From Novipirellula aureliae (GTDB lineage Bacteria; Planctomycetota; Planctomycetia; Pirellulales; Pirellulaceae), in the NCBI RefSeq assembly GCF_007860185.1, contig NZ_SJPY01000004.1, positions 532,214 to 596,213 on the forward strand: a stretch of DNA of 64,000 bases, given 5' to 3'. Under the pieces are notes generated by a model that did not search any database, was not told the DNA's origin, and saw nothing but the letters and a program-made list of their open reading frames with translations. The position numbers were made by a program, and so were the translations under genes. Below are positions 53-41,306 of the stretch, piece after piece. Each line of letters begins with the position of its first letter. Position 1 is the stretch's first letter.

Positions 53-227
53 GGCAATTTACCTAAAATGTGTTCTCTAAAACTCCCAGCCTTCCGGGCT
101 GCACGTCTCCTATTGTAAATCCCATGTCAATTTGAGCCCAGGCCAATCTTCCCCACAAACCCGGTCATGCACCCGCCCCTTAACAAATGACAATCCACGC
201 TTGACAGCATTGGTCTGGGGCGTTAAG

Positions 228-512
228 ACTTCAGATGTGTCCGAGGTGATTCGGTCCGGCTTCTGTCGGCACCGAATGAACAGGGAACTCCGGTGCAATT
301 CCGGGACGGTCCAGCCGCTGTGTGCTGCTGAGCAACCCTTCGACGAAAAACCTTCGATAGAAGATTTTTCTTAGCGGAGTTGCGATCGATTACTCCTTCT
401 ATTGAAGTGCCATTGTTCGCTGCCATTGTTTTTTAGGCACTGCGAATGAGAAGGTTGATGGGTAACCGATTGAGGCAGCGAGTCAGAAGACCTACCTCGC
501 GCGAGACGATTT
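228..512 (+). promoter_or_regulatory. Cobalamin (B12) riboswitch
   Basis: The leader carries the conserved core of the cobalamin riboswitch: ACAGGGAACTCCGGTGCAAT at about 279-299, followed by TCCGGGACGGTCCAGCCGCTGT-like sequence to about 322. The 3' closing element GAGTCAGAAGACCTACCT lies at about 479-497 (consensus GcCaGgAgACcgGCC). The stretch between core and closing element is about 150 nt, longer than usual, suggesting an enlarged variable arm. It lies on the same strand as the membrane protein at 644 and ends about 130 nt before it. In this family bound adenosylcobalamin normally represses the downstream gene. The exact 5' boundary is approximate. Confidence 0.88.
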
Positions 513-643
513 TTGCCTTCTTGGATTGAGGCGATCGTTGCAAGTCTTTCTGCTTTCATGACGAAGTAAATTTGCTTTGTTCGACTCAGAAAGCGTCCTG
601 TGCCCATTCGCTGTCACCTTTACTTGAAAAATGGAACCCAACA

Positions 644-37543: not shown

Positions 37544-38590
37544 TCAGTCCGGGAGCGTCAATAGCTCGCGGGCGCGGCGGCGGAGATGGTAGCGGCGGTG
37601 CGTACGGTGACAACGCATCGAATCGACACTCTCGGGGCGTCCTGCAATGCTGCAGAACAATTTCCCAAAGTCCTTCACCAGTTCGCACCAAGTCGCTTGC
37701 TCGAGTCCCAACCGAACCAAAATCGGTGGTGCAGCCGAAGGCGTCACTCCGCGTTTGCCCGGCGCCACCTGCCGAGCTGTCCAATCGAGTAGCTTCAAGT
37801 AATCCACGAGCGAAATCGGTAAGAAGCCTTTATCACTACATCGCTTGCTGCTATCGCTAGCACAGGGACCTACGGGATCAAGCTGCTCATCGATCGACAG
37901 AGGTGCCAAGAAAGCATCCGGCTTGTCTTCGCTTGGTGACTCGCTTTTCATCGCCTCGATTCGTTTTTGCACCGACGTATGATCGCTCTGCTCCAGCGTT
38001 TCCGCCATCGCGGCACGAATCAAGTTCAAATCCACGTAGGCGGCACAGGCCAGCAGGGATGCTTCGTCCGTCAATCGAGTTGCGCGGTAGCGATCTTGGA
38101 AGAACCGGCCCGACTCCTGCTCCTCGCGATTCGCTCGCATCGCAACGCGTTGGCACAACAGCCGCATCCACCAACTGAAACTGCTCAGCCGCTCGCGGAT
38201 TTCTTGGCATTTGATTGGACAACCAGCGATCGATTTGAGTTCTGGCTCGCTTGGCGGCAAAGGCGACCCGTCGGATTTGCGGCGGTGTGGACAGAGCATC
38301 AACCAGCGCCGAGCCACCTCCCTATCGCTCCAGGTCGCCACCAGATCGGGCCGCGATCTTAGGATCAAGTGGAGGTGGTTGTCTAGTATTGAAAAAGCTA
38401 GCAAATCTACAGAAAAGCATTTGGCAAACTGTTGCAGATACTTTTCGATCCAGATTTTCCGGTGGTCGAAGTTTTTGCCGGACACTTGGTCATTTCCCAT
38501 CAGGAAACAGCGTCGGCAGGTCCGATTGTAGAGATGGGCGACAACGACCTCATGCGGATCAAACACCTCGCTACGTGCCAACCGAACCAT
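37544..38590 (-). CDS. REP-associated tyrosine transposase (RAYT), IS200-like HUH family
   Basis: The 348-residue protein has the Y1 HUH motif FSILDNHLHLILRSRPD (about 66-82, HLH pair). The region with FFQDRYRATRL and AAYVDLNLIRAAMAE (about 165-195) includes the likely catalytic Tyr. A long C-terminal part follows that I do not recognise. ATG at 38590 has GGGAGG upstream. The gene is bracketed by inverted copies of TTAGGGACAGAGCAT, the pattern of RAYTs and their REP/BIME repeats. It is probably a single-strand nuclease/transposase that spreads REP sequences. Confidence 0.85.
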   Translation of the reverse strand: MVRLARSEVFDPHEVVVAHLYNRTCRRCFLMGNDQVSGKNFDHRKIWIEKYLQQFAKCFSVDLLAFSILDNHLHLILRSRPDLVATWSDREVARRWLMLCPHRRKSDGSPLPPSEPELKSIAGCPIKCQEIRERLSSFSWWMRLLCQRVAMRANREEQESGRFFQDRYRATRLTDEASLLACAAYVDLNLIRAAMAETLEQSDHTSVQKRIEAMKSESPSEDKPDAFLAPLSIDEQLDPVGPCASDSSKRCSDKGFLPISLVDYLKLLDWTARQVAPGKRGVTPSAAPPILVRLGLEQATWCELVKDFGKLFCSIAGRPESVDSMRCHRTHRRYHLRRRARELLTLPD

Positions 38591-39172
38591 CACACACCTC
38601 CCGAGAGAAAAGCGTCAGCAGAATCACCAGGAATCGTATACCTCGGTTAGGGAAAAGGCAAATCCACCAGAATCATGCTCTGTCCCTAACTGACCACCAG
38701 AATCATGCTCTGTCCCTAACTGTCCCTCGTGCCAACCGAACCATCACACACCTCCCGAGAGAAAAGCATCAGCAGAATCACCAGGAATCGTATACCTCGG
38801 TTAGGGAAAAGGCAAATCCACCAGAATCATGCTCTGTCCCTAACTGACCACCTTTGCCGGACACTTGGTCATTTCCCATCAGGAAACAGCGTCGGCATGT
38901 CCGATTGTAGAGATGGGCGATAACGACCTCTTGCGGATCAAACACTTCGCTACGTGCCAACCGAACCATCACACACCTCCCGAGAGAAAAGCGTCAGCAG
39001 AATCACCAGGAATCGTATACCTCGGTTAGGGAAAAGGCAAATCCACCAGAATCATGCTCTGTCCCTAACTGAACACACCTCCCGAGAGAAAAGCGTCAGC
39101 AGAATCACCAGAAATCGTATACCTCGGTTAGGGAAAAGGCAAATCCACCAGAATCATGCTCTGTCCCTAACT
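38576..39172. repeat. Four tandem copies of the RAYT leader, one with a duplicated gene start
   Basis: A block starting at GTGCCAACCGAACCATCACA and running through CCTCCCGAGAGAAAAGCGTC and GGTTAGGGAAAAGGCAAATC to a REP core occurs at 38576-38692, 38731-38846, 38956-39072 and, without its first part, 39074-39172. The third copy includes the first 38 or so codons of the transposase. This looks like repeated duplication of the gene's 5' end. Confidence 0.85.
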
Positions 39173-39364
39173 GACACCTAACTGACACCAGAATCATGCT
39201 CTGTCCCTAACTGAATGCTCACCAGAATCATGCTCTGTCCCTAACTGAATGCTCACCAGAATCATGCTCTGTCCCTAACTGAATGCTCACCAGAATCATG
39301 CTCTGTCCCTAACTGACACCAGAATCATGCTCTGTCCCTAACTGAATGCTCTGTCCCTAACTGA
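38667..39364 (-). repeat. Right REP array: ATCATGCTCTGTCCCTAA units
   Basis: Ten full copies and one partial copy of CAGAATCATGCTCTGTCCCT AACTGA-type units occur, the last five spaced by only about 32-35 bp. They are the reverse complement of the core in the left array (TTAGGGACAGAGCATGAT), so the transposase gene sits between inward-facing REPs. They also abut the leader duplications. Confidence 0.9.
38851..38969 (-). pseudogene. Duplicated 5' fragment of the RAYT gene
   Basis: The minus frame starting at 38969 reads MVRLARSEVFDPQEVVIAHL and YNRTCRRCFLMGNDQVSGK, nearly identical to the first 38 or so residues of the transposase at 38590. It then runs into repeat sequence. Two codons differ (H to Q, V to I), so the copy is not brand new. 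Confidence 0.85.
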
Positions 39365-39670
39365 AGGCGAGGTGGTTCCATTCCATGCGAGCAAGTCGTC
39401 AGACTGAGCTCGAACGCGATTTCCCGAGGCATGTTGTTTGTGCGTGGATTGGCAACAGTGAAGCGGTCGCCATGAAAAATTAGCTGCTTGTGACCGAGGA
39501 AGACTTCGCCAAGGCGGCGCAGAATCCGGCGCAGTTGACCTCGGAAACGACGAAAAGTGGCGCAGAATCCGGCGCAGCAAGGAACACGCAAACTTCCGCA
39601 AAGCGCAAAGAAAAACCCGCAAAACACAGTGGAAATGACGTTTCCGACGTGTTTTACGGGTTTAAAAAGG
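39365..39670. other. Intergenic stretch between REP array and tRNA-Ala
   Basis: No gene is supported. A minus frame from 39711 overlaps the tRNA and ends in repeats, so I do not accept it. The direct repeat GGCGCAGAATCCGGCGCAG occurs at about 39518 and 39563. The stretch may hold a decayed gene. Confidence 0.35.
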
Positions 39671-39743
39671 TGGAGGTAGACGGACTTGAACCGACGGCCT
39701 CCTGCGTGCAAAGCAGGCGCTCTCCCAACTGAGCTATACCCCC
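39671..39743 (-). tRNA. tRNA-Ala (anticodon TGC)
   Basis: The 73-nt minus-strand sequence starts GGGGGTATAGCTCAGTTGGG and folds as a cloverleaf. The anticodon arm CTGCTTTGCACGCAG shows anticodon TGC, the T arm contains GGTTCAAGTCC, and the acceptor GGGGGTA pairs with TACCTCC. The full CCA end is not encoded. It lies downstream of tRNA-Ile on the same strand. Confidence 0.97.
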
Positions 39744-39753
39744 GAAGAAGTGA

Positions 39754-39823
39754 GAAGTTTGAAGAGTGAAGGGTGAAATGTCAATTGGGCTTTTCACCCT
39801 TCACTCTTCTTTCTTCAAACTTC
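39754..39823. repeat. Long inverted repeat between tRNA-Ile and tRNA-Ala
   Basis: The left arm GAAGTTTGAAGAGTGAAGGG and right arm CCCTTCACTCTTCTTTCTTC form a long stem of about 25 bp with a short bulge and a 12-nt loop. It lies in the 85-bp tRNA spacer and could be an RNA processing site. No T-run follows the stem. Confidence 0.8.
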
Positions 39824-39828
39824 CCAAG

Positions 39829-39902
39829 TGGGCGTACCAGAACTCGAATCTGGGACCTCGTCGTTATCAGCGACGCGCTCTAACCAACTGAGCTATACGC
39901 CC
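39829..39902 (-). tRNA. tRNA-Ile (anticodon GAT)
   Basis: The 74-nt minus-strand sequence starts GGGCGTATAGCTCAGTTGGT and folds as a cloverleaf. The anticodon arm CGTCGCTGATAACGACG shows anticodon GAT, the T arm carries GATTCGAGTTC, and the acceptor GGGCGTA pairs with TACGCCC. It precedes tRNA-Ala in transcription order, as in bacterial 16S-23S spacers, but no rRNA gene lies on either side. Confidence 0.97.
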
Positions 39903-40277
39903 GAATTTCTCTGTGACAATCTGTCTCGAATCGACTTTCGGGTTGGCGATTCTTTTGTCACGGCCAAAGTTTACGCAAACTGGTTAGCCTGTCAAAGGGA
40001 AGTGACCTCGAATTTCACGTTTTCTCGACTCTTTTCGGCCTATAGCCTCGATTCAACCCTTAAAACCAGTTCTTGCGAATATATCTTTTCGGCTGAAGGT
40101 GCGTCATCACTTCAATTATTTCAGCAACATAGGCTGATCGGAAACCTGAATCTGCTTGCCACCAACGATCTTAGCGAAAAACGTGTTTGGGGTCCTCGCA
40201 AAAACATGTCAGATTTCGTAACGTAACCGTTCGAGATGCTTCTGTAACCTTCACGCCCTAAAAGAAGATCAAAGAAG
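39903..40277. other. Divergent intergenic region between tRNA-Ile and pyrB
   Basis: The 375-bp region must hold the promoter for the two tRNAs (minus) and for pyrB (plus), but I cannot point to convincing -35/-10 boxes. No rRNA-like sequence is seen. AAAAGAAGATCAAAGAAG lies directly before pyrB and may supply its ribosome binding site. Confidence 0.4.
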
Positions 40278-41306
40278 ATGCCTGATACGGGTACTTGCGA
40301 CTTCCCTTTTCCTGCCGATTGGCATCGCCGTGATCTGCTGGAACTTCAATGCCTCGAGCCCTATGAGATTCAGATCTTGCTCGACACGGCCCAGTCGATG
40401 AAGGATCGAACGGAGGGTGGCCGTAAAAAGCTATCTCTTTTAGAGGGGAAAACGTGTGCCAATTTATTTTTTGAGAACAGCACGCGGACGCGGTCGAGTT
40501 TTTCCTTGGCGGCGAAACGACTCGGGGCCGACACGCTCGAGTTCAGCAGTACGGGTAGCAGCGTTGCCAAAGGTGAAACGTTTGTCGATACGGCCAAAAC
40601 GATCCAAGCGATGGGTGTCGATTGGGTCGTCACTCGCCACAATACTCCTGGGACACCTCACTTGTTGTCGCGAGAACTTGAATGCAGCGTGCTCAATGCT
40701 GGCGATGGGGCTCACGAACATCCGACGCAAGGATTACTGGATATGCTGACGATTCGTCAGCATCGCGGTCGACTCGACGGGTTGACCGTCGCTTTGGTCG
40801 GCGATATTGCCCATAGCCGGACCGCCCGCAGCAATCTTTGGGGTTTGAGTAAATTAGGTGCCCACGTGATCGTTTGCGGTCCTCCGACTTTGGTCAGTCC
40901 ACGGTGGGGGGAAATCGGGTTCGAGGTTGCTCATAGCCTGGACGAGATCCTGCCTCGATGCGATGTTTTGAACTTGCTGAGAATTCAATTCGAGCGACAA
41001 CAAGCACGTTATTTCCCCAGCGTTCATGAATACGCGGCTCTGTATGCGATGACAGCCGAGCGAATGCGGAGGGCAAAAGACGACATTTTGATTATGGCAC
41101 CGGGGCCGATCAATCGAGGTGTCGAAATCACACCTGAAGTCGCCGATGGTCCTCAATCGGTGATTCTCGAGCAGGTGACCAATGGCATCGCGGTTCGAAT
41201 GGCCGCCCTTTGGTTACTGGCCGGTGCATCGGATCGACAAGCCGCTGCCGGACAATCCGCTCGCTTCAACGAACCCCCAACTCATCCTGAAAAACCTTGG
41301 TCATAG
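40278..41306 (+). CDS. pyrB: Aspartate carbamoyltransferase catalytic subunit
   Basis: The 342-residue enzyme joins carbamoyl phosphate and aspartate in pyrimidine synthesis. The carbamoyl-phosphate motif FFENSTRTRSSFSLAAKRLG is at about 61-80, HPTQGLLDMLTI near 153, and VALVGDIAHSRTARSNLWGL near 173 in the aspartate domain. No regulatory PyrI gene is adjacent. It ends 1 bp before the dihydroorotase-like gene, which suggests a class A-like complex with that protein. Confidence 0.95.
   Translation: MPDTGTCDFPFPADWHRRDLLELQCLEPYEIQILLDTAQSMKDRTEGGRKKLSLLEGKTCANLFFENSTRTRSSFSLAAKRLGADTLEFSSTGSSVAKGETFVDTAKTIQAMGVDWVVTRHNTPGTPHLLSRELECSVLNAGDGAHEHPTQGLLDMLTIRQHRGRLDGLTVALVGDIAHSRTARSNLWGLSKLGAHVIVCGPPTLVSPRWGEIGFEVAHSLDEILPRCDVLNLLRIQFERQQARYFPSVHEYAALYAMTAERMRRAKDDILIMAPGPINRGVEITPEVADGPQSVILEQVTNGIAVRMAALWLLAGASDRQAAAGQSARFNEPPTHPEKPWS

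Follow-up and report, generated by a model that had tools for sequence, protein, structure and literature searches.

How did a tRNA-Ile/tRNA-Ala pair come to stand without rRNA on either side in the planctomycete Novipirellula aureliae, and is it more than the remnant of an operon? The two tRNAs, their order and their short spacer are those of the pair found between 16S and 23S in bacterial rRNA operons, and the pair is homologous to those of intact operons in the same phylum; unlike them, it has a promoter-like site of its own. The analysis started from a stretch of 64,000 nucleotides, referred to here as the window, and was extended to the whole genome and to relatives. The comparisons below indicate that the pair is probably a former rRNA-operon spacer unit that is now free-standing and transcribed on its own.

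ARAGORN and Rfam place tRNA-Ile, an 84-nt spacer and tRNA-Ala in succession on the minus strand (Table 1), and Rfam identifies no rRNA gene anywhere in the 64-kb window. A reading made earlier from the sequence alone had proposed a stand-alone tRNA-Ile/tRNA-Ala pair with a hairpin between the genes, resembling an rRNA-operon spacer in order and spacing but with no rRNA alongside. ARAGORN, Rfam and RNA folding bear out the pair and its hairpin; the shared strand, the Ile-then-Ala order, the short spacer and the absence of Rfam rRNA matches agree with the rest. That the two genes are pseudogenes was rejected on their Rfam scores of 72.2 bits (Ile) and 68.1 bits (Ala).

Table 1. Features of the tRNA-Ile/tRNA-Ala locus (window positions) and rRNA genes of N. 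aureliae (positions on contig C2)
Feature	Position	Strand	Basis and remarks
tRNA-Ile (GAT)	39828..39902	minus	ARAGORN and Rfam, 72.2 bits
tRNA-Ala (TGC)	39669..39743	minus	ARAGORN and Rfam, 68.1 bits
Hairpin between the tRNAs, arms of inverted GAAGNNT heptads	39747..39824	minus	Folding, period-7 self-match
Sigma-70-type promoter-like site, TTGACA-N16-TAAACT	39968..39995	minus	End of the -10 is 65 nt upstream of tRNA-Ile
22-bp hairpin and TTTTT resembling an intrinsic terminator	39611..39663	minus	About -26 kcal/mol; begins 6 nt downstream of tRNA-Ala
pyrB (aspartate carbamoyltransferase), next gene on the Ile side, divergently oriented	40278..41306	plus	Pfam OTCace_N/OTCace
16S rRNA, single copy	C2:326343-327878	minus	
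23S rRNA, single copy	C2:64410-67292	plus	

Beside pyrB, an Ile-Ala pair was absent from all 73 other pyrB loci compared, 3 of them from non-planctomycetes, in flanks of up to 10 kb and often less. Among the pyrB loci compared, the two are neighbours in the N. aureliae genome only, and the idea that the pair travels together with pyrB was rejected on this count. A tRNA gene of any kind occurred in the pyrB flank at 5 of the 73 loci, one of which (L156) has a lone tRNA-Ala(TGC). On the tRNA-Ala side lie ten copies, nine of them exact, of a 23-nt repeat (AATCATGCTCTGTCCCTAACTGA; window 38671-39345); eight more copies are found on contigs C7, C1 and C25, and the reversed pattern was not found. 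Adjoining this array is a minus-strand reading frame (37544-38593) with a weak match to Y1_Tnp (IS200-like transposase; Pfam score 19.9, below the curated cut-off of 23), which we presume could be a REP-associated transposase. At the far end of the window (227-513, plus strand) Rfam recognizes a cobalamin riboswitch (58.8 bits).

The N. aureliae assembly comprises 7.27 Mb in 40 contigs. The pair is on contig C4, and the single 16S and single 23S are both on C2, about 259 kb apart and on opposite strands, with 5S directly behind 23S. The rRNA organization is thus split, a state that the sequence-only reading had called frequent in planctomycetes, and the pair does not lie between 16S and 23S. 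No tRNA gene was detected within 15 kb around 16S or within 17 kb around 23S. The genomic half of the refuting case named beforehand for a relic spacer, another Ile/Ala pair within an unbroken rRNA operon, was sought in the assembly and did not appear, there being one 16S and one 23S with no tRNAs beside either. Further genes for tRNA-Ile(GAT) and tRNA-Ala(TGC) do occur in a tRNA array on C5, where they are not adjacent.

Unlinked rRNA genes have been in print for planctomycetes since 1989 (Liesack and Stackebrandt 1989, for Pirellula marina; Brewer et al. 2020; both as cited in PMC7761764). As far as that account describes them, N. aureliae resembles these cases in having 16S apart from 23S-5S, and differs from them in that its Ile-Ala pair is also off 23S and carries its own promoter-like and terminator-like sites. 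What is already known is therefore the splitting of planctomycete rRNA genes; what is new is the second break, the separate putative promoters and the heptad hairpins described below. No description of free Ile-Ala units that have a promoter of their own, or of heptad hairpins in planctomycete tRNA spacers, was found in the open-access literature, subscription papers being mostly outside that search.

To place the pair among its relatives, its sequence was searched in 60 genomes, N. aureliae and 59 others of the same order. Stretches were examined from 54 of these, no pair locus having been taken from G007, G011, G036, G043, G053 and G058. An Ile-Ala pair on one strand and within 1.5 kb was present in 41 of the 54; eight had tRNA-Ile with no tRNA-Ala in reach, and five had no tRNA-Ile(GAT) in the stretch. 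At 21 of the 41 pair loci 23S follows on the same strand, 0.47-1.09 kb from the pair, and at 2 it lies farther off (2.9 and 5.2 kb); 18 show no 23S in the available flank, 6 of them with a flank too short to judge. 16S is absent from the flank (1 to 10 kb) of all 41. Both other genomes of the genus are linked, with tRNA-Ala 875 nt (G001) and 825 nt (G002) from 23S on the same strand, which suggests that the last break in N. aureliae is recent. Detachment is not peculiar to this species, because the pair is also far from 23S in three genomes assembled as single contigs (G021, G042 and G052).

From the wider class and phylum, 20 stretches were picked by eye from matches that looked paired, a non-random sample of which one was the 16S of G052; both tRNAs lie close together in 18 of 19 picked stretches. 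An intact 16S-tRNAs-23S order on one strand was seen at 11 of these 18 loci, all from other classes of the phylum, with the strands verified by Rfam at 4 of them. The intact operons vary: three have the Ala-Ile order, two carry a tRNA-Met after the tRNAs, and the 16S of G135 is cut by a contig end. Among the other seven pairs, five are followed by 23S with 16S out of reach, G095 has neither rRNA, and the pair of G163 has a 23S end upstream of it and no other rRNA. With short flanks, rRNA was absent from 5 of 17 wider loci with both tRNAs (G108, G052, G170, G133 and G095), G095 being the one among them that was re-examined with a longer flank outside the order. Homologous pairs are thus linked to rRNA in many relatives: in the two congeners 23S comes shortly after the pair, and in other classes 16S and 23S flank it. 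This speaks for the proposal that the pair began as an rRNA-operon spacer.

The position of the break can be read from comparison with the congener G002. The two pairs match at 93% over 238 nt, and homology stops 4 nt past tRNA-Ala; outside the pair it reappears in a 40-nt promoter block further upstream. The region upstream of the N. aureliae 23S is homologous to the Ala-23S leader of G002 from 76 nt past tRNA-Ala onward (75% identity over 841 columns, 80% over the inner 546). The break therefore fell between these two points, 4 and 76 nt past tRNA-Ala. The surroundings of both the pair and 23S are scrambled relative to G001, G002 and G030, and synteny is lacking; two genes that are neighbours in G001 and G002, for example, sit about 8 kb apart in N. 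aureliae. Comparison with these three genomes gave no answer as to which piece moved, in which direction or by which type of rearrangement.

Two other accounts of the pair's position have to be weighed against a break in the chromosome by ordinary rearrangement. Draft assemblies often fail at rRNA genes, and the separation could be an artefact of this kind, in which case the pair would still precede 23S in the chromosome itself. The confinement of the break to one short stretch would suit such an error; both places, however, are inside long contigs (C4, 647 kb; C2, 996 kb), only one 23S was found, and the three single-contig genomes show pairs far from 23S as well, so that we regard an artefact as very improbable. 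Alternatively, a mobile element made up of the Y1-transposase-like gene and the repeat array may have brought the pair to its place beside pyrB. The weak Y1_Tnp match lies about 1.1 kb from the pair with ten repeat copies in between, and none of the 73 other pyrB loci carries the pair, but the match scores below the curated cut-off and on this contig the repeat is confined to one side of the pair. In addition, rRNA units occupy differing neighbourhoods across the genomes compared, and because of this ordinary rearrangement suffices to explain the move; transport by an element seems to us improbable.

Whether the detached pair could be expressed was considered through the sequences that flank it. 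The promoter-like block before tRNA-Ile, 38-40 nt long, is common to G001, G002 and G015 at 82-92% identity. Exact matches to TTGACA-N16-TANNNT within 250 nt upstream of tRNA-Ile were found at 33 of the 41 pair loci of the order and are missing in 8; shuffling the whole set 1000 times by mononucleotide gave a mean of 0.031 loci and a maximum of 1. A looser match is present at 39 of the 41, a figure obtained without a shuffle control. Linked and detached pairs alike carry the site. Outside the order the picture differs: the loose pattern was found in none of the 16S-tRNA gaps (100-256 nt) of the 11 intact operons, in none of four same-class pairs within 350 nt upstream (G095, G111, G124 and G137, all with 16S out of reach), and, among the 7 wider pairs lacking 16S in reach, in just 2 (G151 and G163). 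This type of promoter seems to belong to the order. Its absence from the same-class pairs and from most of the wider pairs without 16S gives no support to the idea that promoter gain preceded the loss of 16S.

Promoter-like sites also precede 23S. The pattern TTGACN-N15-18-TANNNT occurs in 20 of 22 Ala-23S leaders, compared with a mean of 1.04 and a maximum of 5 in 500 shuffles; the 22 are those of the 21 linked relatives and the 23S leader of N. aureliae, G020 and G022 being excluded. The N. aureliae 23S leader has two such sites, 726 and 582 nt before 23S and near those of G001 and G002, and another lies 396 nt before its 16S (found without a shuffle control). Since sites stand before both tRNA-Ile and 23S, the pair and 23S each resemble a transcription unit of their own within the order, even when adjacent, on the assumption that the predicted promoters are used. 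In one relative (L092, G030) the interval from tRNA-Ala to 23S holds five tandem promoter-like sites before 23S, three of them with near-identical spacer sequence, which suggests promoter duplication.

At the other end of the pair, N. aureliae has a terminator-like hairpin past tRNA-Ala for which no counterpart was found at this place in the linked relatives G001, G002, G015 and G030. Terminator-like sites within 120 nt past tRNA-Ala were found at 7 of the 14 pairs that lack 23S within 1.2 kb versus 2 of the 21 that have it (Fisher p = 0.015, a value to be taken only as a guide because the rows are related species). Six pairs at contig ends were excluded from this test, whose limits were made stricter once an initial run had given 10 of 20 and 3 of 21, respectively. 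Of the relic-spacer proposal, then, origin from an rRNA operon holds, but the pair does not have the appearance of a mere relic: with a promoter-like site conserved in the order, it looks like an independent transcription unit.

We therefore favor, with a probability of roughly 0.8, a reading in which the pair represents the tRNA section of an ancestral 16S-Ile-Ala-23S operon, was freed in at least two steps and most likely forms a two-gene transcription unit. The departure of 16S would have come first, leaving Ile-Ala-23S, and in N. aureliae Ile-Ala would then have separated from 23S. RNA polymerase would now start at the TTGACA-N16-TAAACT site, transcribe tRNA-Ile, the heptad hairpin and tRNA-Ala, and stop at the terminator-like hairpin directly past tRNA-Ala; RNase P and 3' nucleases would release both tRNAs. 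In our proposal, the ancestor of the genus already had separate promoters for the pair and for 23S, which made the second break tolerable. This suggests that within the order the acquisition of separate promoters came before the physical parting of the tRNAs from 23S. The phylum offers an rRNA operon caught in the middle of its dismantling, in which the intact operon, Ile-Ala-23S without 16S, and free Ile-Ala can be compared with one another.

The spacer between the two tRNAs has features of its own. Its predicted fold has a free energy of -40.9 kcal/mol and 31 base pairs, of which 18 form the core, 4 and 7 make up two further runs, and 2 close the tip. The z-score is -7.6 against 200 dinucleotide shuffles, and equal stability was reached by 10 of 3987 pieces of 84 nt drawn at random from the window. 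The 25-bp stem named in the sequence-only reading is thus roughly right in length, although the stem is interrupted. As predicted, the fold offers a long double-stranded stem of the type expected for RNase III processing. The arms consist of 7-nt units of the form GAAGNNT, head-to-tail and inverted, with some units off pattern; the period-7 self-match is 0.62, and none of 1000 mononucleotide shuffles reached this value at any period from 3 to 12.

Similar hairpins are found in part of the order. Spacers of 40-399 nt numbered 36; period 7 ranked first in 14 of them and reached significance (p<0.01) in 8 (those of N. aureliae (G000), G001, G002, G015, G025, G026, G029 and G030), all eight of which fold below their shuffles (z of -2.5 to -11.0). 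The hairpin is not universal, since the spacers that fold no better than shuffles include those of G020, G031 and G051. In G001, of the same genus, the heptad hairpin has a quite different sequence. Between N. aureliae and G002, one stem pair has changed on both sides, from A-T to G-C, in an alignment read by eye; this fits selection for the stem and also fits copying from arm to arm.

Within the N. aureliae genome the exact three-GAAG-heptad pattern occurs 22 times at 10 places, versus 7 for the reversed pattern. Six GAAG-heptad hairpins were noticed by fold or by eye, and two of them lie between two tRNA genes: one in the Ile-Ala spacer and one in the gap between tRNA-Gly and tRNA-Asn of the C5 array. 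Two others are less than 1 kb from the end of that array, one of them detected only with mismatches allowed; one is on C24, and an imperfect one is at C4:465416. Near position 13006 of C1 (L204), a direct array of GAAGRGT heptads adjoins a second array, whose 7-nt unit is GAGTCTT; inspection by eye of 220 nt there revealed no inverted partner for GAAGRGT.

A part in tRNA processing is plausible for the spacer hairpin. As a tentative model, to which we give slightly less than even odds, it may provide double-stranded RNA that separates the two pre-tRNAs and is possibly a substrate of an RNase III-like enzyme. There is no support for a strict processing role, because such hairpins are also found at a distance from known tRNAs and the spacers of several pairs form weak folds. 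At close to even odds, the hairpin could have no function of its own and be a product of the turnover of heptad (STRR-like) repeats, expanding by slippage, with its arms kept matched by template switching between inverted copies. Such turnover would account for exact GAAG-heptad triplets at 10 places in the genome, for hairpins away from known tRNAs (C24, C4:465416), for the wholesale replacement of the hairpin sequence in G001 with the heptad form retained and, through template switching, for the two-sided pair change relative to G002. It accounts less readily for the recurrence of the form between tRNAs, where 8 of the 36 spacers have a significant period 7 and every one of the eight folds below its shuffles, and for the two of about six GAAG hairpins in the genome that sit between two tRNA genes. 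A broader generalization would be that the rRNA operon of the order was dismantled in a fixed sequence, the pair and 23S each having a promoter before they parted, and that the spacer hairpin kept its shape and a job in pre-tRNA processing while its heptad sequence could be swapped; as a whole we consider this unlikely.

The closest match to the hairpin among known structures is the P6b stem of the trnL intron of Nostoc. Degenerate heptanucleotide repeats pair into a hairpin there (as described in PMC3488679), and two different seven-nucleotide motifs give a similar stem and are suggested to fulfil the same role (according to PMC4476775). To the extent that these sources describe it, P6b shares with the planctomycete spacers the 7-nt units on both arms and the formation of similar hairpins from unrelated classes of motif. 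The N. aureliae hairpin differs in lying between two tRNA genes and outside a group I intron, in another phylum and with the motif GAAGNNT; no intron was found in the window by Rfam at gathering scores. The puzzle of interchangeable heptad-repeat stems, known from cyanobacterial introns, thus gains a further setting in the planctomycete spacers, in a different phylum.

The C5 array that carries one of the heptad hairpins (L086; examined as C5:244000-258500) comprises 28 tRNA genes of many isotypes on one strand, spanning about 7.6 kb (C5:247904-255538), and many of these tRNAs have low Rfam scores. Arrays of tRNA genes are described in mycobacteria and in mycobacterial phages and plasmids, according to PMC5966550.
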